From assembly GCA_027604705.1 (NCBI GenBank), contig JADHYV010000015.1, positions 62,001-126,000 on the forward strand: 64,000 nt of DNA, in the 5' to 3' direction. Positions 191 to 44,515 of the stretch are shown here, piece by piece. A program made the translations under genes and the position numbers. How positions within the stretch are numbered: the first letter of the stretch is position 1; every line of letters begins with the position of its first letter. The notes under the pieces are model-generated. The model was not told the origin of the DNA and ran no database searches. It was given only the letters and a program-made list of their open reading frames with translations. Source of the DNA: Allomyces arbusculus (taxonomy: Eukaryota; Blastocladiomycota; Blastocladiomycetes; Blastocladiales; Blastocladiaceae).

Positions 191-1093
191 GCATGCGAAC
201 GACGCGGCCATGGCGCCCAGAGCCACTGCGGAGGGCGCTTGAACGAATGGCAAGGGCAGGGCCGTGGCACAGCTGTTCACGTGATAAAGCACATGGTTGG
301 CGGAATGGCAGGGACACGTGGCGCGCGCGTGACACCAGGGGCCGTGCGCCGTGCGCGAGGGTTACGGCACAGCGATCACCTTGGAGAAACACCGGAGACG
401 CTGACGGCGGTCTGACACATGCAATGTCACGGCGGCGACCGAGCGGGGTGCGACGGGCGGCGGGCGGCAACGGCGACGGCGACGGCGACGGCCCGGCCGT
501 GCTCGCCGACGAGGCCGCCGCCTGTGACGGGCGACGGTGGCGGCCGTGACACGACGCCGCGCAGACGGCCCTCGCGAACGGTCACAGGTCCAACGATGAG
601 CAGGCCGCGGTGCGACGTGCGGCAACGCTCTCTCCACCATCGGAGCCGGTGAGCGCTACCTTCGGCCCTTGGCCGCGCACAACCACGTCTGCCAAACCGG
701 CCCACGCTGCCTGCAAGTAGCCGCACTCGACTCGCGTGTATCGGCGCGTCAAGCTGGTCGCGCTCATTGTCGGAAGCCGCCACGCCCGCCGCGATCGCCG
801 GTCGCCACCAGGCTGCCACGCACACGACGTTCCGTATCTTCCTTGCCCGCCGACCATCGCGCGATCGTACCGACCACCGGCCGTGCCCATCGCGCCCCTG
901 CCGCCGCGGACGCGGCGCTGAACCTTGAGTGCGTTGCAAGCGTCGCTGCGCGCGACCTCCAGCCCGAGCCTGCAAGCGAGCGGCGCGCCGTTGTTGGTCG
1001 CCAGTGACCGACAGCCGCCACCACTGCGCACGACCGAAATCGACGACTCTCGTCGCCGCACCCGATCGGCAAGTTTGCCCGTTGACACCACCC
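191..1093. other. Intergenic, upstream of the WC-1-like gene
   Basis: About 900 bases without a supported gene. It contains a short GGCGAC-type repeat run near 467-500, and long open frames on the minus strand that look like low-complexity Arg/Gly text from GC-rich DNA. It presumably holds the promoter and 5' UTR of the gene starting at 1094. I see no clear TATA box. Confidence 0.5.
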
Positions 1094-4000
1094 ATGTTCC
1101 GCCCGCCCTCGTCGTCGTCGTCGTCCTCGGCCCAACCGCCCGGCGCGGGCCCGCCGCCGTCAGCACCGCCCGCCGCCTCGGCACCGCACGCGGGCGGCAA
1201 CAATGTCTTTGCGCGCGAGCGCGCCCTCGCCGGCGCCGCGGCCGCCGGATACAACCCGGCGACCGCTGCTGCGAATGCCGCCGCCGCTGCTGCTGCTTAC
1301 GACCCGACCGCTGCTGCCGCTGCCGCTGCTGCTGCATTTGCCGCTGCCGACCCGAACCTGCTCGCGGGCCTGATGGCCGCCAATGCCAATCCGACCGCTG
1401 CTGCCGCGGCTGCTGCCGCTGCGTTCTCCCCATTCAACATGGCCGCGGCCGCAGCCATGCTTGCCGCGACGGCCGGTGGACCTCGCACGCCCAATCTCGG
1501 TCTTCTCGCGGCAGCAGGATTGTTACCGCCCGCGGGCGTCATGGGGCTCGACGCGGCCGCGATGCAGGCGTTTACCGACATGCACCAGGCGCCGTTACCG
1601 CCGCAACCGCCTCCACCGCCCCCGGCCCAGCCGCAACCGCCTTCCCAGCCGCCGACAACGCACGCGCACCACCACGATCTCGCGGCGGACCTCGACGCGT
1701 TCGCACGCGGCGGCGCCGGCGGCGATCCCGTCGTCGACTACGCGGCGATGCCCGAAATTGGCACGGCCCCAACCTACTCGCTGCCCGCCATGGACGCGGC
1801 TACCGCCGCGGCCCTGCGGACCCCACCAACGGCCGCTGCTGCCGCTGCTGCAGCGCGAGCCGCATCACGTCGCGCGTCCGGCGCGCAACCGCCGCCGTCG
1901 TTCCAGGACTTTACTGTCCCCGCTACGGCAACCGACCCGATGGCGCTAGCGGCCTCGTCGTCGTCGCTCGGAAACACGGGCTACTCGCCGTACGGTACCT
2001 CCGGGTACGACGCGAATGGCGCGCTGATTTCGCCGACCGACCCATTCATGGCGGTCGCGCCGCCCCCGCCGCCGCCGCCCCCGCCTCCTCCGGCCTCTGC
2101 GTACCCGATGCGGCCCACGCCGAGTCCCGGATTGTCAGCGCCGCCACCGCCGCGCGCACCGCTGTGCCCGCGGACGTCAGTGCCAGGGTTGTACTCGTCG
2201 ACGGGGTTCGATATGATTGGGGTCTTGTCGAAGGTGGCGTCGCGGCCGAACCCGCAAGTGTCGATTGGGCCGGTCGATATGAGCTGTTCGTTTGTGGTCT
2301 CGGACGCGCGCAAACCGGATATGCCGATTGTGTATGTCTCGGATACGTTTGAGCGGCTCACGGGGTACTCGGCGGGGGAGTGTGTCGGCAAGAATTGCCG
2401 GTTCTTGCAGAGTCCTGGTACGCTTGGTTTTTTTTTTNNNNNNNNNNTGCTGGAAGTCGTTTGGATGAGACCTTGACGAACTAACTCGCTTTCTGCCACC
2501 CCACTTAGACGGTCTCGTCAACGAAGGCTCGCACCGGCGGTACACCGACAACGCGTCCGTCTATTCGATGAAGCAGTCAATCATGTCGCAGCGCGAGTGC
2601 CAGTACACGCTCATCAACTACCGCAAGGGCGGCGAGCCCTTTATCAACCTGATCACAATCATCCCGATCGCTTGGGGCTCCGACGACGACACCGACATTG
2701 CCTACTTTGTTGGCTTCCAAGTGGACCTCGTCGAACAGCCCAACGCCATCATGAACCGCATGAAGGACGGCACCTACGTTGTGAATTACCAAATCGCCGA
2801 CGCGCCCGTCGCCGTGCCGCGCGTGCTGCGCCCGCCACAGGAAGCCCTGCCGACGGTCCCCGCTGCCCTGGCCTATGCGCGACCCTCGCAGCAGCACCAA
2901 CAGCTCCCGCACCAGCCGCACCCGATGCTCACGCATCCGACGACCGCGTCACTCGTGCTGTCAGCGAACACGACCCCGTTGGCGGCCGGGGGGAACGACA
3001 TGGACGTGGATCTCGCCCCGCTCGAAGACGCGCCACCGCCCGGGCCGGGGGAATCGGTCCCGCCGCGCCCCGCGCGGCTCGTGGTCCCGGACCCGCGTGC
3101 CGGGTGGCGTGTGGGCGGCGGGATCACGAGTACCGCGACTTCGACGACCACGACGCCGGCGACGCCCGCGCCAACGCCCGGCGTGAACAGTGGTGGCAGT
3201 GGCGGCAGTGGCGTCGGCCACGCGCCAGGCCATTTCGCCATGGACGTGACCGATTTGGTCGGTGTCCGGCACGCCGGTGAAGCGGCGGACCTGTTCTACC
3301 GCGCGCTGGTCGACCAAGTGGATTTCGTGCACGTACTGTCGCTCAAGGGCGTGTTCCTCTACGTCTCCCGCGACTGCCAGCGCGTGCTCGAGTACGATGA
3401 GACCGAGTTGATTGGGAAGCCCTTGTCGCAGTTTTGTCACCCGGGCGATCTGGTCTCGGTCATGCGCGAACTCAAGGACTCATCGACGGGTCTGTCGGCG
3501 GTGCACATCGTCTACCGCATCCGCCGGAAACGGTCGGGGTACATGTGGATGGAAGTGGCCGGTCGGTGCACGCAGGGCGAGAAATCAAAGGGCAAGAAGT
3601 TTGTCGTCTTGACGGGCCGCGAGAAGCCCGTCGTGCGCGTGCACCGCGCGGATATTGCCCGCGTCGGTGGGATTCGCGACGCGTCACCGGATACGACTTC
3701 GGGGCCCGTCACGGTAGCCGGGACCCCGTTGGCGGCCACGTCGGCAGCAGCGGCGGCAGCGCGGTTGGTCGTGGGGGACCCGATGGCACCGCTGCCAACG
3801 CACGGAGGTGCCGACCTGTGGGCGAAACTCGCGCTCGAGGGTTTGTTCCTGCACGTCTCGGCCGAGGCTCCTGGGTTACTCGGTTTCACGCCCGCGGAAC
3901 TGGTCGGCAAGTCGTTGCTCGATTTGGTGCACATTGACGACTTACCAGCGCTCCGACGGGCGCTCGCGCTCGTGCGTGCCGCGCACGTTGTCGCATTACC

Positions 4001-4430
4001 GCACCGGATCAAGAACAAGAAGGGCGAGTACCTGTCCGTCACGTCGGCGCTCATCCCAGGCAATTCCGCGCGCCCCGGTGGGGTTCGGTTCGCGCTGCAC
4101 CGGTGTTCCGCCGCGACCGGGGACGACGCAATGCCCGTGATCCCGGGGGCCCCACCGCTCATCCCGATGGGCGGGAACGGGTGGGGAATTCGTGCCGCTC
4201 CTGCGCTGGCCGTGGTTGAGGACGCGGATGATTTGTTTGATGTGCTGAGTCCCGTGCGGTGCACGTCATGGCAGTACGAGCTGCACCAGTTGCGGTTGCA
4301 GAACCGCAGGTTGCGCGCGGAATTGGACGAAGTCGATACGGCGACGCGGTCCAAGAAGAGACAGAATACGGGTAACGGCACGGGAGGTGTGTTTGGGTCG
4401 AGTAGCGGCGGGAGCAGAGGAGGAGGATGA
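1094..4430 (+). CDS. wc1: White Collar-1-like blue-light receptor (LOV plus two PAS domains, no GATA finger)
   Basis: Two exons, 1094-2417 and 2509-4430, give about 1,081 aa. The intron starts GTACGC, has CTAAC at 2481-2485 and ends TAG; joining it restores one continuous LOV domain. Residues 1-360 are low complexity (poly-Ala, poly-Pro, Gln). The LOV domain (about 363-515) opens with a WC-1-like block ([14 protein letters not shown]) and has the flavin-adduct motif [11 protein letters not shown] with Cys435, then [15 protein letters not shown] second PAS lies at about 701-810 and a third at about 876-975; both resemble the PAS-B/PAS-C of Neurospora WC-1. A short charged helix (about 1029-1052) ends the protein. 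WC-1 proteins are flavin-binding nuclear transcriptional regulators that act with WC-2. The C-terminal GATA zinc finger of Neurospora WC-1 is absent, as in basidiomycete WC-1. The family call is secure; photochemistry is inferred from the intact cysteine motif. Confidence 0.93.
2438..2447. other. Assembly gap of 10 Ns
   Basis: Ten ambiguous bases follow a run of about 10 Ts inside the WC-1 intron. The gap is intronic and does not interrupt coding sequence, but the true intron length is unknown. Confidence 0.99.
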
Positions 4431-7958: not shown

Positions 7959-9410
7959 CTAGTCGACCGGGTCGATATCGGGCACCCACGACCCGGGCAC
8001 GTCCGGTGGAACACTTGCCGACGCCGAGCTCGAGCCCGCGCCGCCGCCACTGTTCCCGCCCCGACTGCTGCTGCCACCGTCCTGCGGCGACTTGGGGTTG
8101 TTCTCGGCCCACTCCTTGACGACGTCGGCACGGCACGTCGGGCACGTCACGTTGCGCTCCATCCAGGGCACAATACAGTCTTTGTGAAACAAGTGGTCGC
8201 ATGGCAGCTTGGTCACGGTCTCACCGAGCGTGAATTTGTCCTGGCAGACGACGCAGTCTAGTGCTTTTTCTGTTCGCATAGAGGGGGAGCAGTGAGTTGA
8301 TGATCGCAGTACGGAAAAGGGTAAAATCGATGGTCGCACCAACTTGCGCCTCGACGATTTCGACTTGCGGCAGCTGCTCAATGAATTTGGGTGGCGCGCG
8401 ATGCGGCTGCGTGCTGTTGGATGGTGGAGAAGAGAGGGTCAGCGCGCACGTCACGACCAGAATAGATAACATCGTGTCGGTCATCTACGTACTTGGTCTG
8501 GTCCATGAGCTGCGTCGCAATCCGGTCAAACTGCTCCTGACCAAACACGAAATCGCCGAGACTGAACGTTCCTGGACCCGCTCCTGCCGAGCTGCCGGCG
8601 AATCTGGTGGGTGGACAAGCCGCATCAGTCATAATTCGTTGCGCTCGTCGTCAGGAACCGGCAAATATGTACCCAGAGAACAAGAGGTCCATGAGCGGTA
8701 TCCCGGGCACAGCAAACGGGTTCGGGCTCGTGGTGCCAGACGCGCGTCCGGTCGCGCCTAGCAGATTCGCACCGTGGCCGGTCAATCCCACATTACTTCC
8801 TTCACGAAAACCAGCGCGTGCGGACATACCCATGACCACATCAATTAGCGCCGATATCGGGTCGAGCGGCGTCGGGCCGGTCTGCTGCTGCTCCTGCTGC
8901 GGGCGCGACGACCGGCGGTTCGATGATCCAGATCCAGACCTGGTTGGGCGCGAAGACGACGACGACGTCGCGCCGCCCGGCCCGAACGTGCCCGACGAGG
9001 ACCTGATCCCATCGGGCCCAATCGTGCCCGTGTAATAGGCAAACTGCACGCCCGGTCCACTGCTGCTTCCGCCACCACCACCACCCATGCCGAGCAGCGA
9101 CGCAAGCGGGTTCCCTGCCCACGGATTGTTATCATGGTCGTGGTCGTCGTGGTCGCTGTTGGCGGCGGCGTCATCGGTGCTGCTGTGGTCGTCGGGCAGC
9201 TACGGGATAAACGGTCAGAGTCGTTGCTCGACCGCGTCATGGCGGCCATCGGATGGTGGATTAACAGACCTCTTCGAGGAAATCACTTGCACAGGTCGGG
9301 CACCGCAAGTCGGCACCCGAGCGCAGACGGCCCACGTCCTCCTGGCACGCGTGGCACCAGAAGCGCGGGCCGGACGCGGGGGATCCGGGGCTGTCGGTAG
9401 GTTGTGACAT
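7959..9410 (-). CDS. RNF126/BCA2-type RING-H2 E3 ubiquitin ligase
   Basis: Five exons, 9270-9410, 8673-9199, 8493-8603, 8340-8413 and 7959-8269, give 387 aa. All four introns are 69-79 nt, and each junction restores a conserved block. An N-terminal zinc ribbon (residues 17-47: WCHACQ... RCPTC... FLEEL) matches the BCA2 zinc finger of RNF126/RNF115, which binds ubiquitin or ubiquitinated cargo. A Gly/Ser/Asp-rich linker follows, then the family block before the RING (FGQEQFDRIATQLMDQ, NTQPHRAPPKFIEQLP). The C-terminal RING-H2 (CVVCQDKF...CDHLFHKDCIVPWM...CPTCR) has all eight zinc ligands in C3H2C3 order and recruits E2 enzymes. Proteins of this class act in protein quality control and endosomal sorting. 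The start ATG has a CACC-ATG context. Confidence 0.93.
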
Positions 9411-10180
9411 GGTGCAGTCGAGATTGGCTTGAGCTGGGCGGGCTCAAGGCGCGGGTGCAGCAGGTGCTTGCGGTTGTGTAGGCCGGATAGCTGGGCGTCG
9501 CTGATGTCGTTGACTTGCAGGTCGTGCGGCGTCGAGGAGTTGGTCGCGGCAGACGCAGGGCGGACACAGTCGGGCGCGGCGGTGGAGAATGCCCGGAAAG
9601 CCCGAGGGGAGTGAGCGCGTGTTCGACCATGTCTGCCGACCCACCAGCAGGAAAGGCATGGCACGACCCCGTGATTTCCGCGTGAGGGTAATGCAATGAA
9701 AGAGCAAACTTGTGTCTCGCACGTCACGCGCCACCACGCGACACTCACGCGGGTCACGGCGACCGCAGGCGCATCCGGCGGAAACGCCTCCGCCCAGACG
9801 CGGAACGTGCCGGTTTCGCGCGTCTGGAAGGTGCCTGCTCCCGCTGATGGTGCGCGCCAGCCATCGCCATCGACGAAGAGAACAACGGAGGCGACCATTC
9901 GTTGTGTCGCACCGCTCACTGCTGGCAAAACGCGGGCTCACCGACCGTGCCGCCGCGGCCATGGTTGGCGGTGGCACGGCACGCACCAGCGACGCGCGCG
10001 CGACACGGCGCCCGAGGCAAATCGGCGGGCGCGCGTCGTGGATCCTCCTCCTCTCCGCACTGCGCAACACACGACCCTCCAGTCATTCACATCCGTCCCC
10101 GCACGAGACCCCCGCCCGCCCTTCGCGCCCGACATCCCGCCAACCATTCGTACCGGCACGCCACACGCGCGACTGACACC
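9411..10180. other. Divergent intergenic region (RING gene and first tandem paralog)
   Basis: 770 bases between the starts of two divergent genes, so it likely contains both promoters. The sequence is GC-rich with scattered CACGCG/GCGCGC runs. I saw no TATA box or conserved motif. The open frames here extend from the downstream gene or are arginine-rich shadows. Confidence 0.5.
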
Positions 10181-12310
10181 ATGCAGGATCACCACCACCA
10201 CCGCGCGCGTCGCTTGGCCGACGACCCGGCGGCCACCGGCCCACCGGCACCTCATCACGGCACCCCGCAGCCGACCTCGTCACGCGCGCACTATCCCGGC
10301 GACCCACATCAGCAGCACCAGCAGCGACCGCACCGCATGCCGCCCGGTCCGCACTCGCGTGAGCGCGATCCGGCCGCGCGCACGCCGTGGTGGGCCGCGG
10401 CAGCCCCACCCTGCGACGAGCTGGACGTGTATTGGCCAGCGGGCATGCACCCGGCGTTCGAGGCGGCGCTGGCCACGGCACCGTCCGCCAACTCCAACCC
10501 AACAGCGACCACTGCGGCCCCTGCCGCCTCCACCCCTCAATCTGGCGAACCGCCCGCCCACGCTCATCCGCACGCCCATGCGCCGACCGCGACGCATCCA
10601 CTGCCCCCGCCGGCGCTGCCGCAGGCGCCGCATCATCCGCACGTGGCGCGTCCCCCGCACCAGGCACCTGACCGGCGCCGGTGGCCGGGTCCGCCGTCTG
10701 ACGTTGGCACGCATCACTCCCATCGCCACCACCACCATGCCGCTGGATCCGGCTGGACCGCGGCCAATGCGACGCTCCCACCGCCGCCCGGCCCGCCGTC
10801 GACGCGGTACGACCACCGGTACCCGCACCCCGCGCACGCGAATTTCCCGCCCCTGCCGCCGCCGCCCACGAGCACCAATTGGCCCGACCACCAGCCTCCA
10901 GCGTATCCGCAATGGACCCCGGCCACCGACACGTACGACGAGTACTCGCGCGTCCCGCCCGCGCATCACCCGCACCACCACCACCGCCACCACCTCCATG
11001 CATCGTGGTGGCCGCCGGCGACACCTGCGTCCGCGCCCCCAACCGCGCCGCCATCCGCGTGGGATCACGCTCAGGGTTGGTACTCCACGGACGAGCCGAG
11101 CGCGCAGCTGCAACCAGCGCGCAAGCGCGCGCGTGCCGCGCACGGCGACGAGAATGACGAGGGGCCCGCAGATCCGCGGGCCGCCGGTGCGGCCGAGGTG
11201 GCGGTCTCGGCGGCGGCGACAGCGAAACGAGCGCGGCAGGACGCGCGGCCGGAGCTGGGGGTGTTGGTGTTGCCGATGCCTGCGGCCACGACGGTGGCGG
11301 CGGCGACGGCGCAGGTCGAGGCGGCGCGGGGCACCGCGCCTGCACCGTTCCCCGGACCGGCGGACGAGGATGAGGGGGATGACGACGTGGACGAGGAGAA
11401 TGTGGCCGAGGCGGACGGCGAAGGTGGGGTTGCAAGCAAGTCGCGCGTACGTGCTCTCTCCACCCGACATCCAAGGACCACGACTGTGGTGTGACTCACG
11501 GCTGGCGATCTGGGTTCATGTAGCGCTCCTACCACGTCTTCACGCGCAAGACCTACGAACTGATGGTTGCGACGCTGCTCATTGCCAACCGGCACGCGCC
11601 CGCCGCCAGCGGCACGTCTGCCGTCGACCGCGCCGTTTCTGCCCTGGTCACCGCTAAGCACCCGGCCGTTTATTCCGAGACGCCGTTGCCGACCATGGCG
11701 CAGGCCGAGTGGCTGCTCAACGACCCGACGACTCCCGCCGCGCACCAGGTGGCGGGTATGACGCGTAAAAAGTGGAATCGGCTCAAGTCGAACTTGCAGC
11801 TGCACGTTGCGCGTGGCCAGTACCGGTGTTTAAGTTGGGTCAAGTGCGCGCGCGTGATTGTTCCGCAAGAGGACTGGCCGCTCGTGATTCGCGCCGTGCA
11901 TGTGGCCGCGAATGCGAAATCGGGCGATATCGAGCATCGGTCGCTCAAGCAGACATATTTGGCGGTACGTGCGACGCTGCTGGGGAAGGGAGTGTGATCG
12001 AGGGAGTGATTGAACAAGGACGGCCCGACTGATCAATTCACTTTGAATCTGTCGACAATAGCTGAAAAACACGCACCAGGCGCGGCGGTCGCGGTGCGGG
12101 ATCAGCTACGAGGACTGCGAGCAGTACTGCCAAGGGTGCGTCTGCTACGGCGCGCTCGACTCGCGGTTCTTCCAGCACTTGCAGGCCGAGACGAACGCTG
12201 CTGCGGACCGGGACGGGGCGGCTGGCGCTGACGCGACAGGCGGCGCCGAGAGTGCGGTAGATCACGCAGGCAACCAGGCCGCGGCCACCATGGATCGCGT
12301 TGGTGCGTGA
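10181..12310 (+). CDS. Tandem family member A: disordered N-terminus plus novel HHCC zinc-binding-like domain
   Basis: Three exons, 10181-11446, 11524-11964 and 12062-12310, give about 651 aa. Residues 1-420 are His/Pro/Ala-rich and probably disordered. They end with a basic patch (RKRARAAHGDEN) and an acidic patch (DEDEGDDDVDEEN). The C-terminal domain (423-600) starts RSYHVFTRKTYELMVATL, passes through GMTRKKWNRLKSNL and YRCLSWV, and ends with His548, His560, Cys592, Cys595 and Cys597 in a pattern invariant among the three paralogs (H-x11-H-x31-C-x2-C-x-C). The spacing recalls the HHCC zinc module of retroelement integrases, but no catalytic core is present. I know of no described family; a nuclear DNA- or protein-binding role is only a guess. 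It is the most divergent of the three, with extra intron 2 (97 nt) absent from B and C. Confidence 0.8.
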
Positions 12311-12941
12311 AGAGCAGCAAGCTGGAGACGGGCGCGCGAGGGCGGCGGTGCAGAGACCCGGCGCGCGCGCGTTCAGCACGGCGGGCGGCAGTATTGATTA
12401 TCCATGAGCAGTGGCCGCTGTGGCATTGTGATACATCCGCATCACCGGCATCACCGTTCAGAAGTTCTGGCACGGCTGGGTCGCTTCTGAGACCTGGGAA
12501 ACTAAGACAGTTCCCCTAGTGAGACCGCCCCCTCTCACTCTCCGTTCTCGTTTTTCGATGCAAATGCAACCCCAAGTTTCGCCGGGCCTGGATCGATCGG
12601 CACGTGATATGAGCGCGTGGTCCCTGCCCACGTTGGCCCACGGGGTCGGCGTCGTTCGCGCTCTCTGGGCACAGCCGTGGCCCACCAACGCTTCGCTCGT
12701 CGCCCCGTTGGTTCGACGCAAACGCTGCTGATGCCCTCTTCCTCCTCTCCGTTGCTGCCTGCTCCCTCCGTTGCGCTCGCCGTCTCGCCGTCGAAACGCA
12801 CACCGGCTCGCGCGCATCACCGCATCAAGATCCAACGGCCACGCAACTCTGTTGTGCCGGCCTTGACCGCTTCTGCTCTCCACGACCAACTCGACAACCC
12901 CAACCGCACGGACTCTCCCAGCACTCCCAACACCCAGCACC
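12311..12941. other. Intergenic between paralogs A and B
   Basis: About 630 bases with no supported gene. It becomes pyrimidine-rich from about 12730 (CTCTTCCTCCTCTCCGTTGC) toward the start at 12942, as is common in fungal promoters. No shared motif with the upstream regions of A or C was obvious by eye. Confidence 0.5.
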
Positions 12942-15278
12942 ATGAACCACGCCGAGACACACATGCTGCCCCCAAACACCGGCCCTGGCCCCGACCCCGG
13001 CCCCGCCACTGATGCAGCCTATAGCGCGCCCGCACCGCCTCCGCCGTCGTCCTGGCCCGTGGGTGCGCCCAGCATCTACGATTCCACCGCATGGCACACG
13101 ACATCAACGCGCGCCCCCCACCACGCCGCGTTGGCATCCGCGACCATACCCCCCGATCACGCATCTCTAGCGCGCCACACCGCGGGGCGCACGCGACGTG
13201 CCAACGCGCCAGACGGCCCGCTGCCCCCGCCGTGGCCCCCCGGCCATCCGCGCGGCAGCAGCAGCAGCAGCGTCAGGGACCCATGCGACGGTTACTACCA
13301 CCACTACTGTCCCGCTCCACATGCGCCTACGCACGCCGGCCGCGATCGGGACTACCCGGCCTACGCCGCGCCGCGGCCCCCGGCCCACTCTGCTGCCGAG
13401 CTTGCCGCAGCCGCACGCCGATTCGACGGCAGTGCCGGCCGGACCGCGGTGCGCGGTGCCGATTCATCCGCCGCGTACGCCTCGCCGCCCCTGCTGGCCA
13501 CACAACCGCCGACACGTGGCAGTGTCCCCCACGCCCAACCCGACGGCCCGTCGGCGGTGGACTCGCCCCATCCGTGGCCACGCACCGCAACCGACGGGCT
13601 CGTTCGTGCGTACTTGCCGTACGACCCGGCTCCGATGCGCGGCGCATCGGCTTTGGCAGCGGGTGCGGCGGCCGCGCTCACCATGCCTGGTGGACGTCGA
13701 GCCGCGGATGAGGCGGCAGCAAACGTGAGTTACGCGCCGCCGCCGCCGCCATTACCGCCGCCCTTGACGCGGCCGGGGTGGGGGGCGCAAGAGGGCGAGT
13801 GGTATGCCGCAACCGCACCTGGGACCGCGCCGATGTACGGTCATGGTGCAGCAGGATCGAATCCCGCGGGACCGTATGCTGGTCCGCCATATCCACCGGC
13901 GTACGCCCACGCGCCTGGACCGTATTACGACGGGTGGGGTGCGCCAGCGCCGCCGGCCGGTTGCCGCGGGTCGTATCCCGATCCTGCATCGACGCTGCGG
14001 TACGGCGAGGTGTCGGATCGTGACGCGTGGGGACCGCGGCCAACAACACAAGATGCGTGCGTGCCCTCCCAGTATGCAGCGGTGCTTTACTCGGGCCAGC
14101 AGTACGCGGACCCGCGGTACCCGGCCTCGAATTACGCGTCCGCGGCCTACCCGGGCTCGGATTACGTGCCCGCCGCGCCTTACCCAACCTTCGATCACGT
14201 TCGCGCGCCGATCGTGGACGCGCGGTACCCGCCCGCGCAGTACGCTTACCCGTCCGCGTACGCGCACGACGCGTTCCCGCACGACGCGGCACCGCGACCT
14301 GCGACGGCTGATGTTGATTATCCACCAGTTCCGGTGGTACCCGAGGCGGCCGATCCGATTCCGGCCGTGCCGTTACCGTTGGCGACCCCGCCGAAAGCGA
14401 CCGTGTGCACCAACCACGACGAGGGCGAGGACGACGACCGTGGCTCAGATGCCGACGTCGAGGTGACAGGCACGGCCGCCAAGCGCGCCGGGTCCGACGG
14501 CGACGGCGATGGCGATGGCGGCAAGGCACGCGTACGTCATTCAGTCCTGCCCTCCTGTCCACTGCTAATCAGCCCACTCAACTCACGCCTTTCTCACCCA
14601 TGATAGCGGCACTACACCGAGTTCACCAAATTCACCTACGAACTGATGGTGGCCTCGCTCGTTGCCGGCCCGCGCGGCGGCCGGTGGGGTGTCGCGCGCA
14701 AGCACACGACGCCGATCGACGTCGTGCGGTCGGCCCTCCATGCGGCTTTACGGCACCCGCCGGGCGCCGACCCGACCACGATTGCGTCGGCCCCGCACGA
14801 CCCGACCGGCCCGCTGCGCATCTTCACGCTCGAAGAAGCACTGCGCCTGGCCGCCGCGACGCGCGCACCGCCGCACGAGCTCGCCGGAATTTCGCGCAAG
14901 AAGTGGGCACGGCTCAAGGCGTGTCTGCGCATCGTGCCCGGCCGCCCGCTCTACCGGTGTCTAGCGTGGGTGGGCGGTGGGGACGCGATCTTGGCCCCGC
15001 GCGAGGACTGGGACATGATTGTGCGCGACGCGCACTTGCATCTGAATGAGGCCACGGGTATGGTCGAGCACCGCAGCTTGAAGCAGACGTTCTTGGCGGT
15101 CAAGGAGCAGTATCAGACACGCAGGTCACGGTCCGGGATCGGGTACGAGGCATGCGAGCAGTTTTGCCAGGCGTGTGTCTGTTACGGCGCGCTCGACCGG
15201 ACGGCGGAGGCGGGGGCGGCAAGTACGGGTGGTGGGGTGGGGGCGGATGTGGACGCGGGGGCGGTGCCGGCCGATTGA
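12942..15278 (+). CDS. Tandem family member B: disordered N-terminus plus novel HHCC zinc-binding-like domain
   Basis: Two exons, 12942-14531 and 14607-15278, give about 753 aa. The 75-nt intron starts GTACGT and ends TAG, and sits at the same place and phase (0) as intron 1 of A and C, just before R-x-Y at the domain start. The 530-residue N-terminus is Pro/Ala/Tyr-rich, with repeated Tyr-Pro spaced segments around 14100-14260, and ends in an acidic Asp/Gly/Glu stretch followed by KAR. The domain (531-735) contains YELMVASLVAGPRGGRWG, HELAGISRKKW, YRCLAWV and EHRSLKQTFLAVK, and has His673, His685, Cys717, Cys720 and Cys722 with spacing identical to A and C. It is much closer to C than to A. 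Function unknown; the invariant His/Cys set suggests a bound zinc. Confidence 0.8.
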
Positions 15279-16408
15279 AGCGAAGTGGATGGATGACGGG
15301 CCACGGTCACTTGCTGCCGAAGGCCGTGCACCATGTTGCGCACGGTCGCGCGGGCTGGCGCAGGCGGCCACGGGTGCGGTGCACCGCAACCGGCCGCGTT
15401 CAGGATGACGGAGGTGGACGGGCGCGCGAGGGCCACGACACGTGTTGGAGGAGCTCTTGAATGCACATGCCGCGCGAGGAGCGCGATTTTTTGTTGTAGA
15501 AATGACATGATTAGGGTTGCTCGGGGCGGTGAAGCGGCCGGAGTTGCCGTGGCGGTTTTGAGGGCCCAAAAGCCATGAAGGGGGCAACCGCGGCCGTCTC
15601 GACGGCGGACCACCGCACTGAGCTGGTGGGTTCACCGCCAAATCACGGCGCAGCCAGGCAAGTGTCGGCAGGGACGCATCGCGGACGCAACCCCACCGAA
15701 ACGCGGCGTGGGTTCACATGATGCGATGCGCCACGCCGCCAACGGTGCGCGCGGCGCGGGCGAGGTCCGGTCGCGCAGCTGGCGGGGCGGGCCAAGCACC
15801 GGCCACGCGCCCTCTGGCCGCAGCACCTTCGCGCGCCGTTCCGTTCATTCCTCTTCAAAGGCACCGCATCGCCCTCCCCCTGCCCTCCTCTCCGCGCGCG
15901 CAAGCTCGTCCTCCCTCTCTGCCCAGCCCCGCTCTCCCTCGGATCCACCCGCGTCGCCGTCGTCCTCGTCAGCCGCCCGCTCTGTCGGCCTCCCGCCCCG
16001 TCGTCGCTGTATCGCGCCCGCCAGCACCTCGCACCTTGGCGCGTGCTCCGCCACGCGCGACAGTACGTGTCCCCTCCCCCACGCCCTGCGCGACTCGTGC
16101 TCCACCTGCTCGGTTGTTGTTGCTGTTGTTGTTGGTGCGCATCGCCCCTCTGTGTGTCTCGCACCGCGTCGCCGACGGCATGCCACGTTGAGCACGACGT
16201 GGCTGCCCTCGTTGCCCTTTCTGTGACTGATGGTGGCCCGTTGGTGCCCGTAGACCCCTCGTGTGTCCCTCGCTGTGCTTGGTGTCCCACGTCACGGTTC
16301 ATCCACCGCACGCACGCGCGCATTCAACGGACGCGCCACCCCCGCCGATCCAACCACCCCCCCGTCGCCCATCCTGTCTCTCCATCTCTCCACCACCACC
16401 AACCCACC
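15279..16408. other. Intergenic between paralogs B and C
   Basis: 1,130 bases without a supported gene. From about 15850 to 16400 the + strand is pyrimidine-rich, with many CTC/CCT runs and a GTTGTTG-type repeat near 16112-16136. This is likely the promoter and leader of paralog C. The open frame that covers the second half simply extends the paralog C frame upstream. Confidence 0.5.
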
Positions 16409-18406
16409 ATGCCGCCACACGCCGTGCCGCCCAGCGACGCCGACACTGGCAATGTCGCGGACCGGTCGCCGCCAATGCACCCCAATGCCGGCCCCGGCCC
16501 CTACGACCCGTACGACTACGCGCGCGACCGCGACCACGCACACCGCGACCGCGACCGCGCGCACCGCGACCGACCCTTCGCGCATTCGCACGCGCACGCG
16601 CCGCAGCTGCCGTCCAACACGACCCCTGCCCCCGCCAACGCCGCCTCGCCCTATGCCGGGCCGCGGTACTACGCCGACGACACTGCGCGCGTCCCGGCTG
16701 CCAATGCGCGTGCTGCTCCACCGCCGCGGCCGGACTGGCGCACTGACCCGCGCGCCGGCCCGCCTCCATACTGGGCCGCACCCGACCCTTACTACTACCG
16801 CGGCCAGCCGCACGCGAGTTACCCGTACCCGCCGCCGCCGCCGCCGCCACATGCCTACGCACACCATGCGCGTGGGCCTTACCCGCCTCCTCCGCATCCC
16901 GGGTACCCGCCGCACCCCGCGCACGCGCCGCGGTACGACCACGCGCCCGGTGGAGACCGTCGCGCGAGCCCGGCAGCCGAGCGCGGACCCGACGTGGACG
17001 TGAACCGCCAACGCGATGCTGGAAATGGCAACCGTGACGTGGCCGCCGCGTCCCTGCCCATGACGTTGCCCGTTGGAACGGCTGCTCCAACGCCCGCGTC
17101 GCCCCCGCGTGCCCGGCCCGACGCGCCGCCCAGCTACGCACACCGCCCGCCGCCGCCGCACGCGCACGCGGGGTACTACCCTCCGCCCCCGCCGCCCGAG
17201 CACGACCCGCACGCCACGGCCTACGCGTACGGGCCCGGGTACGGCGGCCATCACCCGTCGCCGTACGGGTACCCGCCGCAGTATCCGCCGTATGGGCACT
17301 ACCCGCCGCATCCGCACGCGCACATGGGCCCGCCGCCGCACGCCTACGCGCCGCCCCCGCCGCCACCGACGGCCGCTGGGCCGTTGCCGCACCCGCGCCC
17401 ACAAGCCGCTGCAGCGGGCGCGGGGATGGATGTGGATGGTGATCGGCCCCCGGCTGGACCGTCGCCCACGGCGGTCCCAATCAAGCGCGAGGTGGTCAGC
17501 ACGCCGCCCATGCCCGCGGCGGCGCGGACGCCGCCCACACGCTCGGTTGCAGGCCCGGCGCCGGCACCACCCGCACCTGTGCCCGCACCGGTCCCGATCC
17601 CGACGCCGGCGGCGGATGGCGTAGATGCGGACGCGCGCGACGACGAGGATTTGGGGAGCGATGGAGATAAGCCCAAGGTGCGCGCATTCGACGCATGGAC
17701 GCTGTTCGCTCCACCTGGTTTTCCCCCCTAACTGACTCTGTTCGTCTCGTCTCGTCTTTAGCGGCAATACTACATCTTCAACAAACTCACCTACGAACTC
17801 ATGGTCGCGTCCCTCGTCGCCGGCCCGCGCGGCGCCCGGTGGGGTACCGCGCGTCCGGAAGCCAGCCCGCCACTCGATGCGATCCGTGCCGCGTTACACG
17901 CGGCCGTCCGCCGTCCCCCCACCACCCCGGGCGCGCCCGCCTCGATGCGTGTCTTCACCATGGAAGAAGCCCTGCGGTACGCCGCAGCGACTTCCACTCC
18001 GCCGCACGAGCTCGCCGGCATCTCGCGCAAAAAATGGGGCCGGCTCAAGGCGTCCCTGCACCTCGTGCCCGGCCGCGACCTGTACCGGTGCCTCGCCTGG
18101 GCGGGTGGGGACCTGATGGTCGCGCCGCGCGAGGACTGGCACGATATCATTCGCGACGCGCACTTGACACGGGATCCGGACCGCGGGCATGTCGAGCACC
18201 GCAGCTTGAAGCAGACGTTCCTCGCGGTCAAGGCGCGGTTCCAGACACGGAGGTCGAGGGGCGGGATCAATTACGACGAGTGTGAATTGTATTGCCAGAG
18301 CTGTGTCTGCTACGGCGCGCTCGACAGGGCGGTCATGGAGGCAAGGGTGCACGAGGATCCGGCGCAGCCCGTGGGGACGGTCGCTGGGGAGACCGTGGTG
18401 GCGTGA
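16409..18406 (+). CDS. Tandem family member C: disordered N-terminus plus novel HHCC zinc-binding-like domain
   Basis: Two exons, 16409-17677 and 17762-18406, give about 637 aa. The start ATG has a CCACC-ATG context. The 84-nt intron (GTGCGC...TTTAG, with CTAACTGAC) lies at the position conserved in A and B. The N-terminus has an Arg/Asp/His segment (RDRDHAHRDRDRAHRDR) and then long Pro/Tyr/His runs, closing with an acidic DDEDLGSDGDK patch. The C-terminal domain (424-620) is collinear with B: YELMVASLVAGPRGARWG, HELAGISRKKWGRLKASL, YRCLAWAGG, EHRSLKQTFLAVK. Putative metal ligands are His557, His569, Cys601, Cys604 and Cys606. Same strand, same architecture and close spacing point to local duplication. 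Function unknown. Confidence 0.8.
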
Positions 18407-18733
18407 TGGGGTTAAAGGGAGGAGGAAGAGGAGGGGGACTGTGGAGTGTCCCTGGATTCACGGGAGAGATATTTATACACGCATCCATTTTTGTGCTGAT
18501 CATTGTCGTGGAGATTGAGTCATGAGCCAGTTGTGGTGGTGCGCAGGTGAGGGAGGACTTGACTGCAAAGACTGTCAAGCGAGTATTGCCAAGCAGGTTC
18601 ACCGTTGTGTCGTCATCAAGCTGTGCATGGGCATCGCGACAATTGATCTCACGCCATCCCGCTTGGACGTGTCAGGTGCATTGTGGCCAAGAAAATACAT
18701 CCACTGCATGGACGGATTTCAGTCCAAATGCCC

Positions 18734-18751
18734 CACACACACACACACACA
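18734..18751. repeat. (CA)n microsatellite
   Basis: About nine CA units in a row, followed by a looser CA-rich tail. Seen directly. Confidence 0.9.
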
Positions 18752-19727
18752 TGCACACCCTGCCTGCAAATTGGCCCCACAAGCTGTCAAGTCAAGCAGG
18801 TTCAACAACACTTGCAGCAAGAACTGATCCTTCTCCACCAACACCACTGTCAACAGGAGCTGAGTTACTGGACTGAGATGGCAAACCATGAGAGTGCAGC
18901 TCAGCCACAGCTGCAAGAGCTGGGACATTGAGACAGGATTGGAGCATGATCTGTGTGACCTGCCAGCATCACAGCAGACAAGGTTGAAGGGACTGTGTGG
19001 CATGCCACAACAGCAGTGGCATTCGACTGGGTGGAAGAAGTCAAGCTAGATGTGGCAGCAGCATGCAGCTGGGAAAAAGTAACCATGCCAGTACCAGTCA
19101 AGCCACCTTGGCCCCCCAGCAATGCCAACTGTGTCCACAGCAGGTGCACCACACACGCAGGACCATTTGACAAGACACATGGAGGGCCATTGGGGACAGC
19201 CACAATCTCCTTCCACCATTCACAGCCATGGCTGCATGGTGGCCAGTTGTACCAGATTTGAAGACAGTGCCATGATAAATCGTAAGGGAATCGTTCTGGG
19301 ATCATGTCAAAGAAGGGCAAGAAGGGTGCAAGACTGACTTGCAGAGAGCTGTAGGACATGGTGGTGGAAATGGTTGATGACAACAAGCAAGATATGAGAG
19401 CAGGGAGTTGATACAGAAAACATGGGCAACCATTGAGGGACACAAATGGCTTCAGGGGCAGTATGCCAACACAAAACAAGCATAGGAGAAGGGCGGGGGA
19501 AGCCCAGGCTCAGCAAGAGGCACAGGTGATTGTAAGTGTCCTGTTTTGCCACAAAGCTAGCAGTGCACAAATGGCCTGGAGGCAGGAGCGAACCGAAAAG
19601 GAATGCCACGGATAGCTCGAAAAAGTGTCTCCACCCGTCAAACTCTCCTGCAAATCGTTCCTGAGCGCACTGGTGGTGCAGAACGATGTGGTCCGTCTTG
19701 CCCGCTTCGCACAAAGGTGTGCACATT

Positions 19728-19966
19728 GTGGTCGTACTTCAAACGCTGTGCCAACAGAAAGAGAAAACGGGGCCCGCATACACCCATTGCCAGAGAGGAC
19801 AGCCGTTTCGCGCGTGGGACCTGGGCGGGTGGCACTTGTTGCACGCTCAAAACCCAGACAAAATGTGCGCATTGACGTTGGCTGTGACAAAACTCTGAGC
19901 GACAGGGACGAAATACGTCAGCGGGCAGTTCTCTTTCAGTGGGGCAGGGCAGGCGTGTGCAAAGGA
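19728..19966 (+). repeat. Diverged direct repeat, copy 1
   Basis: Starts GTGGTCGTACTTCAAACGCT and runs to the GGGGCAGGGCAGGCGTGTGC segment. It aligns by eye over about 240 bases with 20371-20610 in the same orientation, with many substitutions and a few small indels. Shared landmarks in order: GGTCGTACTT.AAACG, GCCAACAG, GCCTGGGCGG-like, ACAGGGAC.AAA, ACGTCAGC, CAGTGGGGCAGGGCAGGC. No coding capacity recognised; probably an old interspersed repeat. Confidence 0.65.
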
Positions 19967-20199
19967 CGGCTCCCATTGTCGCGGCCAGGCGCAGCGAGGC
20001 GGCAGAGAATGGTAATGAGGACGGAAAGGTGGAGGCGTGGCAACGTTGTGTGTTGGTGACAGCAGTCCTGATGAAGAGAGGACTGGAGGCGGTCATGACA
20101 GGCCGCAACAGCAGCCCGAGGTCGTGGCATATTTACGCGGGCAGAAGCGCGGCAGGAGGTGTGTAAGAAAATGAAAGGAAAAGGGTCATGCCCGCCAGG

Positions 20200-22636: not shown

Positions 22637-25600
22637 TCACGACACGGCAAACCGCCACGCGCGACCCATTTCCCAAATATCCTCAGCGTCCGCCCTTCCT
22701 CCTGCAGCGCCAACAGCCCCATCCCCAGCCCACAAATGCTCCACCTCCTGCCGCCACCGCGCGCGGTGCGGCGCGTCGCCGCGCGACACTGGCCGCTCCT
22801 CTTTCCCATCCACTGGTGGCGGGGGCGGAACCGGCACCGCCGTCCCGGCGACCCGTACCCCCGTCGCCGCATCAAACTCGAGCGCCGGGAACTCCCACGC
22901 GGGCAACTGGTCCCGGACCGCCCCCCTCAATGCCGCCAAGTCCGGGTGCGCGGCCAGTTGCGCGCGCACGACCAGGAGCAACACGGCGACCGCGGCGAGG
23001 CGCACGAAAATGGCGGAGAAGGGGTGCCCCGCAAATTGCTCGAGTTTGGCATGGATGTGCAGGCCCGTCAGGGATGCGCCGGGCGGACGGATTCGACGCT
23101 GGAACGCCGCACGCGCTTCGTCCATGGCCTCGCGCGCTTTCGCGCGCCACGGGTCGATGCCGGTGAGCGGTGGTGACGGCGGCGGGGTGATGGCCTTGAC
23201 TTTGAACGGCGGTGGCGGTGGGGACGCGGACCGCACGACGGCAGAAGCGTCGACGCCGCCAAAGACGTACGGCGCTGGCCGGTGTCGAAGCGTCGGTGGG
23301 TCGACCTTGGGCGCAACTGGTGCGGGGCGTGGGACGACGTGCATTGGCGGCGGCAGTGCGACCACGGCGGTTTCCGCATCCGCTCCGGTTGGCTCGACCG
23401 CATTTGCGAGCAGCAGCGCCGCGCCTGCGGGCCACCGCACGAGCTGCGCGACATCGAGCGCGGTCATCCGGCACTTGTCGCGCGCGTGTCGGTCGACTTG
23501 CGCGACGTGCACGAGCCACGCGACGAGCCGCGGCATGCGCAGACGCGCCGCAAGGTGCAGGAGCGATTGGCCCGTGATGGGGTGCCGAGTGGCTCCGAGT
23601 TGGGCGGTCAACTCGACCGGGATCGTGGCGCGACTGCTACCGCCGCGAGTCTGGGAAATTGCAACGAGCACGGCCATGGCGCGCATCATGCGGTCCTCGA
23701 GCGGCTCGGACGAGACGAGGCCGAGTCGCTGCGCGAGGTTGGCCATGTCGATCCGAGGCGACGAAGCGGTGTGCATCGTGCCCGACGAGGACGAGGTGCC
23801 GGCGGCGGCACTGGCCGTGACGTTGGGTGCAAACGACGAGTAGGTCGCGACGATTCGCGACGCGATCGAGTGCGGGTTGTCGACGTTCCCGTTGAGGTTG
23901 AGCCCGATTAGGGTCAGCGCGAGCTCGAGCAGGGCACGGTCGGATTCTACAATCTAGGGGCGTCAGCGGTTGTTCGCTGTATTCGAGCAGCCGGCCCAAA
24001 AAAAAAAAATGAGACGAACCGTCGCGGTACGTGAACGTGACCGTCTCCTGGCCCGTCGAGAGCCCGAGATCGTGCACCTGCTTGATGGTCACGGGCACGG
24101 TCCCCGGCTGCGCGGCCGGCGGCAAGACGCACACGAGCGTGTTGGGCGACCAGTACGTAGTCGACGTCGCGAGCGCGTCGCCAAACTGGACCGTCAGCGA
24201 CTCTATTGATCCAGAAGGTGTTAGTCTTTCTTCGCGCACGACAGAACGTGAACACGTGCAAACGCACCATTGAACCCGGACCCGAGCACAGTCACCTCAA
24301 TCCCGCCATGCACCGGGCCCTCGGCCGGAATCACTCGATCAATCTTGGGCAACTGCGCGACGAGCGGCGTGCCCGCGACCCCCTTGCCCAAACTCAGCAT
24401 GTGAGTCGCCGGTCCCGGCGACTTGACCGCGGCCGGCGCCGGCTGGCGCTGCTGCTGCTGTTGTTGTTGTTGCTGCTGCTGCGCGGCCGCGAGCTGGAGC
24501 AGCGTCGCCGCATCCATTCCACTGCCATTCGGCGCAAAAATTCTCGCCCCACCCAACAACCCCGCAATCAAATCGTTCCCCAGCGGCTGTTGCGCCGCCG
24601 GGGCGGAAACCGCGGGCATCGTAGTCACTGGCGGCTGTGGCGGGGGCGGGGACGTCGCAGGTCCCGCATTCGGCGCGAGCGAGTGCACCGCGAGCGTCGG
24701 CGGCGTCCCGAACGAGAACACCTGCGCGGGCGGCGACGCGACGGCCGCGGCGGCCATCGACGTGGGCGTCATCGGCACGTCCTGGACCATCGGCGACGGG
24801 TGCGCGCTCTCGGTCCGCGGCCGCTTGCGCACCGGGTCGTCCCCCAACGCCGGTGGCGGAGGTGGAGAAGCCGACGCGTTCAGGTGCTGCAAAATCGACG
24901 CGTCGAACAGCGGCATCGCGTTCATGCCGAGCCCGAGGTGCGCGAGCGGGTCCGCCATACCGGCCGGCGAAGCGGCGGTGGTCGATGGAGCGTTTCCCGC
25001 GACGTCCAGGAAGGAACTCATCCCGAGCGGGTTCACGGCAGCGGGCGCGGAAGTGGTCGGAGGCTGCGTCGTGGTCGCGCCGAGGTACATGGCGTTGCCG
25101 AGCAGGGACGCTTCGATCATGACCGAATCATCAACTTGGTCGCGGTCGCGTTTGAGCGACGTTGGTGCCGTTGGAGCCGCGAGTGGCGGCGGCATCAACG
25201 GCATCGTCCCGGCCGTCGTCGTCGGCGGCATCCCCGGCGCACCGAGCGGCATGACCCCCGCCGCGGCGGCGGCCGCAGCCGCAGCCGCCGCAAAATTGAA
25301 GAAGTTCATTTGCGCAAGCTGCGGGTTCTGCAACTGAGCAAGGAACATTTCCGCCATCCCGGACCCACCACTCGCGGCGGCCGCATGCTGGTGCAGCAAC
25401 TGGTGGTGGAACTGCTGCTGCTGCTGCATTTCCTGGCGCCGCGCGAGTTCCTGCTGCCGCTTCGCCTTGTTCACCGACTTGTGGTCGTCAGTGATATTGA
25501 TGGGCGGCGTCTGCGCACACGCGAGCCGAGCGCCGTTGGTGTCGCGGATCTCAAACTTTACAATGAACCCGACTTTTTCCTTGTGGTGCCGGCAGTAGCA

Positions 25601-26692
25601 CGGGATCCGGATCGGGAGCGCCACGTCGCCGGTGGACACGTCCAGGTCGGGCGGCGCGTTGACGAGTAGGATCTTGCGCTCCGACATCATCAGGTCCGCC
25701 GAAGGGGTGGGCGAGTCGTCGGTGAGCGGCGGGACCGATGGGGTCGCCGCGAGCCCGCGCGGACTGCCGCCGACGGATGGCGGCGGGCTGGGCGGGGCAG
25801 TGGGTCCTGTGGGGGGTGCAGCCGCGGGCGTCGTCTTTTTGCGTTGCATGCGCTTGGTCTGCAGGACACCATGGGCGAGTGAGGAGTGAGTAAGTGCTCG
25901 CCCCACCACGGGCCCATGAAACCAGGCAGTGACGAAACATGTGCCACCTCCTCCTCCGCGGAAAAAAAGGAGCACGACGCTCGCACATACCTCGCGCTTG
26001 ACACACCCAGCGCACGCCGTAACGACCGCAGTTGGGTCAGACCCACGGACAACTGTGCCATGCAGCACGACCACTGCCTCCGGGTCGACCGTCGCGTCCA
26101 TTGCATCCGTATCGTCGTCGGGCTTATTCGCGACGCGCAACCACCGGTCCGACGCAATCAGGGCGTCGGGCACGCGCAGTGTGCGAAACCGCGTCACGAG
26201 CGCGTCCGAGTCGCGGTGCACGAGCTGTATGACCAACTTGATTTGCGTCTCCACGCGTGACTTGGCGCCGTGCGCGGCGACGCCGAGAATGCGCAAGCGG
26301 TACGGGAGGCTCGGGTCGTCGCCGAGTATCGCGGCGGCCGGCGTGGTGGACGACGACATGGAGACGTCGTCCCCGTCACCGCCGCCGCAGGCACCGGGTT
26401 CGGGTGACGCTGTGGGGGACGCGGCGGGTGGAGGGGTCGCGGCGTCGGCCGCGGGGGAGGTCGGGGACGTGGGCGTCGTCGGGACGGTCGCTGCCGGTGC
26501 TGATGCCGCGGCGGGCCGTTTCGGTTGCAGCGTGAACCCGGCGCTCACGCCCGTTGTCACGGCGGCCGCCGCGGCCGCAGCCATGGCGGTCGGGCCCATA
26601 CGCAGCGGCGCAGCAGCAGCCACAGACATGGGTGCGGACGACGTGGACGGCACGGAGCCGGGCGTGCGCGTCAGCAGAAAGGCCTCGTTCAT
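22637..26692 (-). CDS. spt23: Mga2/Spt23-like membrane-anchored transcription factor (IPT/TIG, ankyrin, C-terminal TM)
   Basis: Four exons, 25991-26692, 24268-25858, 24020-24202 and 22637-23946, give about 1,261 aa; introns are 132, 65 and 73 nt. In order: a conserved N-terminal region (LPYRLRILGVAAHGAKSRVE, residues about 120-235); a basic start of exon 2; a conserved CYCRHHKEKVGF core at 321; TPPINITDDHKS; a long Gln/Ala/Pro linker with a poly-Gln tract; an IPT/TIG fold (about 738-830); an ankyrin pair (about 947-1007); and one hydrophobic helix (about 1135-1156, VRLAAVAVLLLVVRAQL) before a ~105-residue tail. This matches yeast Mga2/Spt23, which sit in the ER membrane, sense lipid saturation, and are processed by the proteasome to release a factor that induces the OLE1 desaturase. 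The first ATG of the frame is at 26692; the open frame upstream of it has no ATG. ER anchoring here is inferred from the helix. Confidence 0.88.
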
Positions 26693-27568
26693 CGGGCGAT
26701 AGGGAGGAATGTGCCCAGGTGCGATCGACGGCTGGTAAGAGAGCGCGAGCGCAATCGTGGGCGAGCGCGGGGAGAAGGTTGCGGGCACGGCGCAGGGTTC
26801 AAACACGACAGACAGCCGGCGGAATGGCCGTGTGGGTGAGGCTCGCTTTCACTTTGCGCTGGAACGAGGCCGACCGCGCGCAATCCCGCAGGGACCGACG
26901 ATGGCGTGCGACACCGTGCTGGCAGAGCGGGAAACGTTGCCGTGCCACGCTGGCAGCCGTCTGGATCGTCGAGTGCGCGGTGGACTTGGTTCCCGTGGAC
27001 GGTGCTCGTGCGGTAATTCACTGGCGTTTGCGACCACCGCCGGCGGCCTGGATCGCAGTGGAGTGTTGTCGTGCGAGACTCGATTGCCGTAAGTGCGGGT
27101 GTGGTGGTGTGCGGCGGTCGAGGCCAGCAGCGATGCCGAAGGTAACGTGGGAGGAGTTGGATGTTGGCCGTGGTGTTTCTGTGGGCCCCAGTTGGCAGCG
27201 GCTTGGTGCTTTGGGGCGCACCAGCGACCGCGCCAACATCATCGCGACGATTTGACTGATTTTGTTCAACATGATACGGCCATCTCCCTCCTCTTCCTCC
27301 TCCTTCGCAAATCACGCCCGGCATCGAGCGCACGGGACCAGCGGACGCGGACGTGCACGACCACATGCACCGCGCGGTTAAGCCTACCCGCGACAGACCT
27401 GGCGCGACGAACACGACCTTGCAAAACAGATCTCAACTTGTCGAGCCAGCCAGCCAGCAGTCCGATGCAATCGTCCCCCACCCAGTCGTCGATTCGTAGG
27501 CAGCGTATCCGGCGCCGTACGGTGCCCATGGGACGCGGCACGTGCGACAGGCTCGCGCGCACCGCTTC
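26693..27568. other. Intergenic, upstream of the Mga2/Spt23-like gene
   Basis: About 880 bases between two minus-strand genes. It contains the probable promoter of the Mga2/Spt23-like gene and the 3' UTR of the syntaxin gene. A TCCTCCTC tract lies near 27280-27305. No gene recognised. Confidence 0.5.
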
Positions 27569-43800: not shown

Positions 43801-44515
43801 TGCGCAGTCCCACGCGCCCAACCTGCGCGGGTTCATTGAAATCTCGACCCGGATCACGGGTTGGGTCGCGGCCACGATTGTCGGGGAAGAAGACACCAAG
43901 AAGCGCGCGGGTTTGATCAAGTACTTTGTGCAAGTCGCCGACCGGTGCCGGTCGATGCACAACTACAACACGACGTTTGCGATTGTCGCGGCATTGCAGT
44001 CGGCGCCCGTCTTCCGGCTGCAGCGCACGTGGGAGGCCGTGTCCGCCAAACACAAGGCGGTCCTGGCCTCGCTGCGCGCTCTCGTCGACCCGGCCCGCAA
44101 TTTCGCGGCCTACCGCGACGCTGTCCGCTCTGTGCCCGCGCACGCGCCGAGCCTCCCGTTCCTCGGGCGCGCGCTGTCGGACCTGACGTTCCTCGAGGAC
44201 GGGAACCCGAACACGATCCAGGCGCCGGGGAAAGCGGATGTCGAGTTGGTGAATTTCACCAAGCGCGCGCGCACGGCCGAGATCCTGCGCGACTTGCAGC
44301 AGTGCCAGGTGACGCCGTACGTGCTGCGCGTCGTGCCGGAACTGCACGACTGGTTGCTGGCGCGGCTCGCGACGGCGCCGGTGCCCGAGGACGCGGTGCA
44401 GCTCGGCGGGGGTGTGGCCGACCCGCTGTATGAAATGTCGCTGCTGCGCGAACCGCGTCGCGAGCGCGAGGACCAGAAGCTCGTGCGGCTGCTCGCGGAG
44501 TCAGGGCTGCTGTGA
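40824..44515 (+). CDS. Cdc25-type Ras guanine nucleotide exchange factor (SH3, WW-like, RasGEF-N, RasGEF)
   Basis: Two exons, 40824-41928 and 42000-44515, give 1,206 aa. The SH3 domain is at the very start (residues 2-58: VVKAQFEYTATDPNHLSFRA ... GWWDGFLGTRRGWFPSNYV). A WW-like segment follows (about 67-95: KSYWVNDLTGEATWEHP). A Ser/Thr/Pro-rich region and a helical region occupy the middle. RasGEF-N begins near 739 (VKAGTVPALIERLTLP ... FLCTYRTFMSS), and the catalytic Cdc25 domain spans about 915-1170 (DPIEVARQLTLLEFTAFSRI, RGFIEISTRITGWVA, LPFLGRALSDLTFLEDG). Yeast Cdc25 also carries an SH3 domain. The protein should load GTP on Ras; the SH3 and WW parts would set location. The intron is 71 nt (GTACGT...CAG). 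Confidence 0.94.

Follow-up and report, generated by a model that had tools for sequence, protein, structure and literature searches.

Three tandem Allomyces arbusculus genes share a C-terminal His/Cys domain that may be a diverged integrase-like HHCC zinc-binding domain

What kind of protein is encoded by three neighboring genes, here designated A, B, and C, that end in the same His- and Cys-bearing domain? The genes are found on contig JADHYV010000015.1 of Allomyces arbusculus, within the 64,000-nucleotide (nt) stretch that was analyzed (positions 62,001–126,000, forward strand; hereafter the window, within which all coordinates are given). A first-pass annotation of this DNA had noted three adjoining same-strand genes with a common C-terminal domain of ~190 amino acids (aa), unlike sequence ahead of that domain, and a zinc-site-like signature for which it knew of no described family; it proposed that the genes could be lineage-specific nucleic-acid- or protein-binding regulators, and profile–profile and structural searches were suggested as checks. 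The answer given somewhat better than an even chance here is that the domain is a diverged integrase-like His-His-Cys-Cys (HHCC) domain, co-opted and tandem-duplicated in nuclear regulators comparable with ZBTB11 and Spt10.

The three genes formed a tandem on the + strand at 10181–12310 (A), 12942–15278 (B), and 16409–18406 (C), and their predicted spliced products were 651, 753, and 637 aa, respectively. The ~190-aa domain was located at the C-terminus of each product. BLASTP identity between domains was 65.5% for B and C (E-value [E] 4e-92), 43% for A and B (2e-54), and 43% for A and C (2e-52). This likeness is far beyond chance, and the three-gene family described in the first-pass annotation was confirmed. 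Ratios of nonsynonymous to synonymous substitution rates (dN/dS, NG86 method) were ~0.49 (A–B), ~0.39 (A–C), and ~0.36 (B–C), the first two being rough because dS in comparisons with gene A was ~1 or more. These values are as expected of real proteins, and A, B, and C are paralogues under coding constraint.

The domain of gene A was encoded on the + strand in two parts, 11524–11964 (RSYHVF...TYELMVA to EHRSLKQTYLA) and 12062–12163 (C-x3-C-x2-C-x-C and CVCYGALD). In genes B and C the domain occupied single + strand exons, at 14607–15203 and 17762–18328, respectively. The signature H-x11-H-x31-C-x2-C-x-C had equal spacing throughout the trio, and every residue number given for it by the first-pass annotation was correct: H548, H560, C592, C595, and C597 in A; H673, H685, C717, C720, and C722 in B; and H557, H569, C601, C604, and C606 in C. 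A six-frame scan of the window for the contiguous motif gave two matches, namely B (15033–15182, +) and C (18161–18310, +); an intron splits the motif in A.

In the gap-free alignment of A, B, and C, 76 of 175 columns were invariant. The invariant columns included three His (A496, A548, and A560) and five Cys (A524, A588, A592, A595, and A597), so HHCC is a mere subset of the conserved His and Cys. The Cys end had the fuller form C-x3-C-x2-C-x-C, and a further Cys was found inside YRCL. The conserved block as a whole read P-x-E-D-W ... H-x11-H-R-S-L-K-Q-T ... G-I-x-Y-x-x-C-E-x-x-C-x2-C. Five of the eight columns with Cys in any copy were invariant, as were three of the 15 columns with His. The other 12 His-bearing columns caution against over-reading, and they would suit the view that Cys/His conservation is structural or incidental, with no metal bound and the HHCC likeness a product of chance. 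That view, which could also draw on the comparison of just three paralogues and on the modest HHCC statistics given below, is considered improbable: gene A and the other two copies are unlike at roughly half of their positions, yet A retains both His of the HHCC set and the five Cys columns.

The integrase HHCC (H2C2) zinc domain has been described in passages of PMC5384227 by the pattern HX3-7H(X23-32)CX2C. The layout in all three copies here was HX11HX31CX2C. His and Cys come in the integrase order (H, H, C, C), and the last two spacings (x31 and x2 in A, B, and C) also agree with the integrase pattern. The claim that no described family has this layout therefore stood only in part; the curated libraries were silent, as detailed below, but the integrase HHCC domain shares the order and those two spacings.

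A query profile made from the last ~104 aa of domains A, B, and C was compared with a profile of four real HHCC stretches, i.e., Ty3 and prototype foamy virus (PFV) from PDB sequences, and L105 and L106 from viral contigs. In hhalign, Pro, both His, and Thr were paired at a score of 22.7 (P-value 0.0017). Column shuffles reached this score in one of 300 and two of 1000 trials, and the reversed profile scored 15.5 vs 22.7. Global alignment added the pairing of both Cys (C601 and C604 of gene C). When single sequences were ranked against the HHCC profile among 1231 sequences, B was placed 7, A 15, and C 171, all three with the identical start column; natural decoys for this ranking and for the reverse test were the noise loci L002–L104, and the decoy draw of the former is not exactly repeatable. 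In the reverse test, three of the four real HHCC domains fell in the correct register, by hand-read coordinates, and L105 was out of register. A second comparison profile that included a hand-written consensus had much the same outcome. No further integrase HHCC rows were found with a hand-written consensus, and query A5 returned only the contig of L105 (L107). Loci L108–L110 were noise and were not added to the comparison profile, and the motif was present in none of L111–L113, for which the search pattern was probably one base off. At the level of sequence profiles, the likeness to integrase HHCC exceeds that of shuffles, if weakly by the hhalign probability, and falls short of proof of descent.

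The AlphaFold input was four rows of window translations, with one row each from C and B and two partial rows from gene A, and so represented the three paralogues. The whole-domain model was too poor (predicted local distance difference test [pLDDT] 56), and its Foldseek matches (43 rows, none significant) were disregarded. The model of the last 104 aa of gene C had a pLDDT of 66.7, a middling value of low confidence. In this model a helix ended at H557 and was followed by a loop, H569 stood three residues ahead of the next helix, and C597 and C601 lay within a later helix with C604 adjoining. Such a helix order is expected for an HHCC domain, and the predicted order is compatible with one. 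Among the best 50 of 77 PDB rows found by Foldseek, the top TM-scores normalized to the query (TMq) belonged to three chains of type V-K CRISPR-transposon complexes (0.42–0.44), only one of which, 8aa5, carries the name TnsB. PFV integrase had a TMq of 0.38 among the same rows. Foamy-virus Pol had the highest probability, 0.28, among the best 50 of 305 viral rows. These matches to integrase-like proteins are weakly compatible with the integrase-like reading, not supportive alone.

The proposed arrangement is as follows. The last ~105 aa would constitute a diverged integrase-like HHCC (H2C2) zinc-binding domain, in which a helix would end in the first His and be followed by a lengthened loop and by the second His (H-x5-T) just before the next helix. 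A third helix would lead into the Cys pair, and the His and Cys together are predicted to hold one zinc. The integrase-derived domain would have been co-opted and then duplicated in tandem for use by nuclear regulators. By analogy with such regulators, the C-terminal domain would have DNA or a chromatin partner as its target, and the effector part, which would recruit the transcription machinery, would be the acidic arm ahead of it. Zinc binding, the fold, integrase descent, a nuclear role, and DNA binding are all putative properties of the trio. The integrase-like reading would narrow down the first-pass idea of nucleic-acid- or protein-binding regulators.

Several results weigh against this proposal. 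The His–His loop was 11 residues long in all three copies vs the published 3–7, and the W-P block of integrase HHCC domains was absent. The hhalign probability was 15.5% for the last ~104 aa and 8.7% when the query was the whole domain, and the global score was matched by 14 of 300 shuffles. Ranks in the reverse test, of 966, were 13 (PFV), 23 (L106), 274 (L105), and 436 (Ty3), with the hand-written consensus at 16. Domains A, B, and C had no match to Pfam Integrase_H2C2 or zf-H2C2 at E ≤ 10. The positive control for the Pfam search, a hand-written Integrase_H2C2 consensus, was recognized at E 2.6e-31, which means that this search would detect a typical member. The domain's first ~85 aa are left unexplained. 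On the structural side, the models were based on just four rows, root mean square deviations were up to 9.9 (PFV) and 12.5 (8aa5), and FoxP3 was as good a match (TMq 0.41). Of the suggested checks, the profile–profile comparison thus gave a likeness above shuffles at a low hhalign probability, and Foldseek with the gene C model returned no significant match in the PDB or viral sets.

The most serious competing explanation is a zinc-binding domain that has no relation to integrases and may be lineage-specific, with more ligands than HHCC and perhaps with two metals. This explanation is possible, if clearly less probable than the integrase-like one. The C-x3-C-x2-C-x-C end is richer than the integrase Cys pair, with five of eight Cys columns invariant, and the first spacing (11) lies outside the published integrase pattern. 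The silence of the libraries is in keeping with it as well: domains A, B, and C had no significant match in Pfam, NCBIfam, PHROGs, or PDB sequences. On the other side, when the domain is compared with integrase HHCC at the profile level, Pro, His, His, and Thr match and nearly all shuffles score lower. As a statement about the genes, the main alternative is that the trio comprises regulators built on a new zinc-binding, non-integrase fold in which three His and five Cys could act as ligands, tandemly expanded and equipped with Pro/Ala-rich disordered arms; this is regarded as rather doubtful.

Candidates below the cut-off in Pfam were metallothionein (E 0.019) and DUF1258 (E 0.082; 0.037 with a shorter piece) for gene A only, and fvmX7 (E 0.0074) and WDR47_COR for gene B only. 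None of these weak matches was common to two paralogues. One family member matched phrog_32834 at E 0.13 (query set A1), which was not significant, and PDB sequence matches had E of 0.96 or more. Among viral contigs, 45 pattern matches (query A1) and 40 pattern matches (query A6) were obtained and none was confirmed as a homologue; the same was true of 60 pattern matches (query A1) among genome contigs of a prokaryotic collection. No homologue was found in phages by tblastn with domain C. Because the collections searched were viral and prokaryotic, absence from them says nothing about fungi. Titles and abstract openings in the open-access literature, covering in part the best 25 of 55 and the best 12 of 735 records, contained no family of this description.

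Among known systems, the closest comparison is with Integrase_H2C2 (PF17921) and zf-H2C2 (PF09337), the HHCC zinc domain at the N-terminus of Ty3/gypsy and retroviral integrases. Shared features were the H, H, C, C order, x31, C-x2-C, a Pro ahead of helix 1, H-x5-T, and a helix predicted to lead into the Cys pair. Unlike Integrase_H2C2, the trio had the loop of 11 and additional invariant Cys, lacked the W-P block and a DDE core, and drew no Pfam score. Since neither the profile score nor the first spacing qualifies, the domain is not classed as an Integrase_H2C2 member; it may work like Integrase_H2C2, as a possible diverged relative.

The HHCC motif has also been reported in the vertebrate repressor ZBTB11, GIN1, and NYNRIN, according to passages of PMC5384227. 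In the ZBTB11 experiments described there, rescue was lost when any one of the four ligands was changed, but not when the entire N terminus was deleted. The trio resembles ZBTB11 in having an HHCC likeness in a cellular protein, and no catalytic core is described for ZBTB11 in those passages (PMC5384227). ZBTB11 differs in having HX6HX29CX2C together with BTB and C2H2 fingers, whereas the remainder of the trio proteins had no Pfam match. Yeast Spt10 contacts histone-gene elements via its DNA-binding domain, and the finger of this domain is described, in the portion of the literature covered, as homologous to foamy virus integrase. It is likewise a fungal cellular protein with an integrase-like finger; unlike the trio, it is described there as a putative acetyltransferase, and no acetyltransferase match was found in the trio domains or N-terminal exons. 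GIN1, GIN2, and NYNRIN are integrase-related host genes with a reported HHCC motif, and GIN1 and GIN2 keep an integrase-like domain, whereas the trio has just the HHCC-like part (excerpts of PMC3424704 and PMC5384227). Imagin is another integrase-related host gene (excerpt of PMC12863088).

If the integrase-like reading is true, the trio would be a tandem-duplicated, probably fungal example of host proteins that carry an integrase-type zinc finger, and the lengthened His–His loop with extra Cys would be a variant to which present domain models are blind. Such divergent examples could escape screens that use Pfam to look for co-opted transposon parts. The species tree of one such screen, as given in the portion of PMC10799480 covered, was without Blastocladiomycota.

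An HHCC domain is typical of Ginger-like and long terminal repeat (LTR) elements, which raises the question of whether the trio is made of pieces of a mobile element of either kind, not of host genes. This is considered very improbable. A DDE core would not fit, since only 54 (A), 31 (B), and 31 (C) residues follow the last motif Cys. A search for repeats of at least 24 nt in 9000–20000 found no terminal repeats flanking the genes; it returned only the domain copies and intragenic stretches, and the sole inverted pair lay in exons of A and C. No reverse transcriptase or integrase match was found in the domains or the N-terminal exons. With no DDE core and no terminal repeats of that length, A, B, and C are not transposons as they stand. 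A fourth domain copy was not found in the window by tblastn or profile search with all three domains.

Gene models for A, B, and C were built from splice sites and homology, with the splice choice made by homology. Gene A comprised exons 10181–11446, 11524–11964, and 12062–12310; gene B, exons 12942–14531 and 14607–15278; and gene C, exons 16409–17677 and 17762–18406. All four introns, each on the + strand, were GT..AG. A phase-0 intron immediately before the domain, which starts with R-x-Y-x-x-F, was common to the three genes: intron A1 at 11447–11523 (GTACGT..ATGTAG), directly 5′ of the shared domain, and introns B1 at 14532–14606 (GTACGT..TGATAG) and C1 at 17678–17761 (GTGCGC..CTTTAG) at the same domain-relative position. 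Intron A2 (11965–12061; GTACGT..CAATAG) was present within the domain of gene A only, where it separated T-Y-L-A from the Cys cluster. Read-through of this intron runs into a stop, so its retention would remove the putative Cys ligands.

The N-terminal arms were 420 (A), 528 (B), and 421 (C) aa long and were all Pro- and Ala-rich. They had no mutual similarity by BLAST at E ≤ 1 (low-complexity filter on), in agreement with the first-pass annotation, and the N-terminal exons had no Pfam match at E ≤ 0.1. The arms are probably disordered. The most acidic 30-residue stretch of each protein lay shortly upstream of the domain, with net charges of -13, -8, and -8 in A, B, and C, respectively. Tyr made up 6.7% of the arm of C (16409–17677, +) and 6.2% of that of B (12942–14531, +), in a Pro-rich context, and only 1.9% of that of A. 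Such Tyr-containing Pro-rich arms may form condensates or serve as activation regions. The string IKRE in gene C resembles a SUMO site.

The trio sits amid ordinary chromosomal genes. Nine of ten large open reading frames (ORFs) scanned in the window had a Pfam match, among them SPT23_MGA2_DBD, PAS, RasGEF, COG5, ferric reductase, 5′-nucleotidase, and adaptin. A PAS-domain gene was located at 929–4430 (+), with PAS_3 at 7e-22 in 2568–4430 and an upstream ORF broken by an N run at ~2438–2449; it may encode a white-collar-type blue-light receptor. A gene with an SPT23/MGA2 DNA-binding domain, a fungal family, was found at 24221–26806 (-; SPT23_MGA2_DBD, 6.4e-32), which hints at a fungal origin of the DNA. 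A RasGEF domain at 41918–44515 (+; 8.5e-57) was preceded by DUF7783 (6.9e-22).

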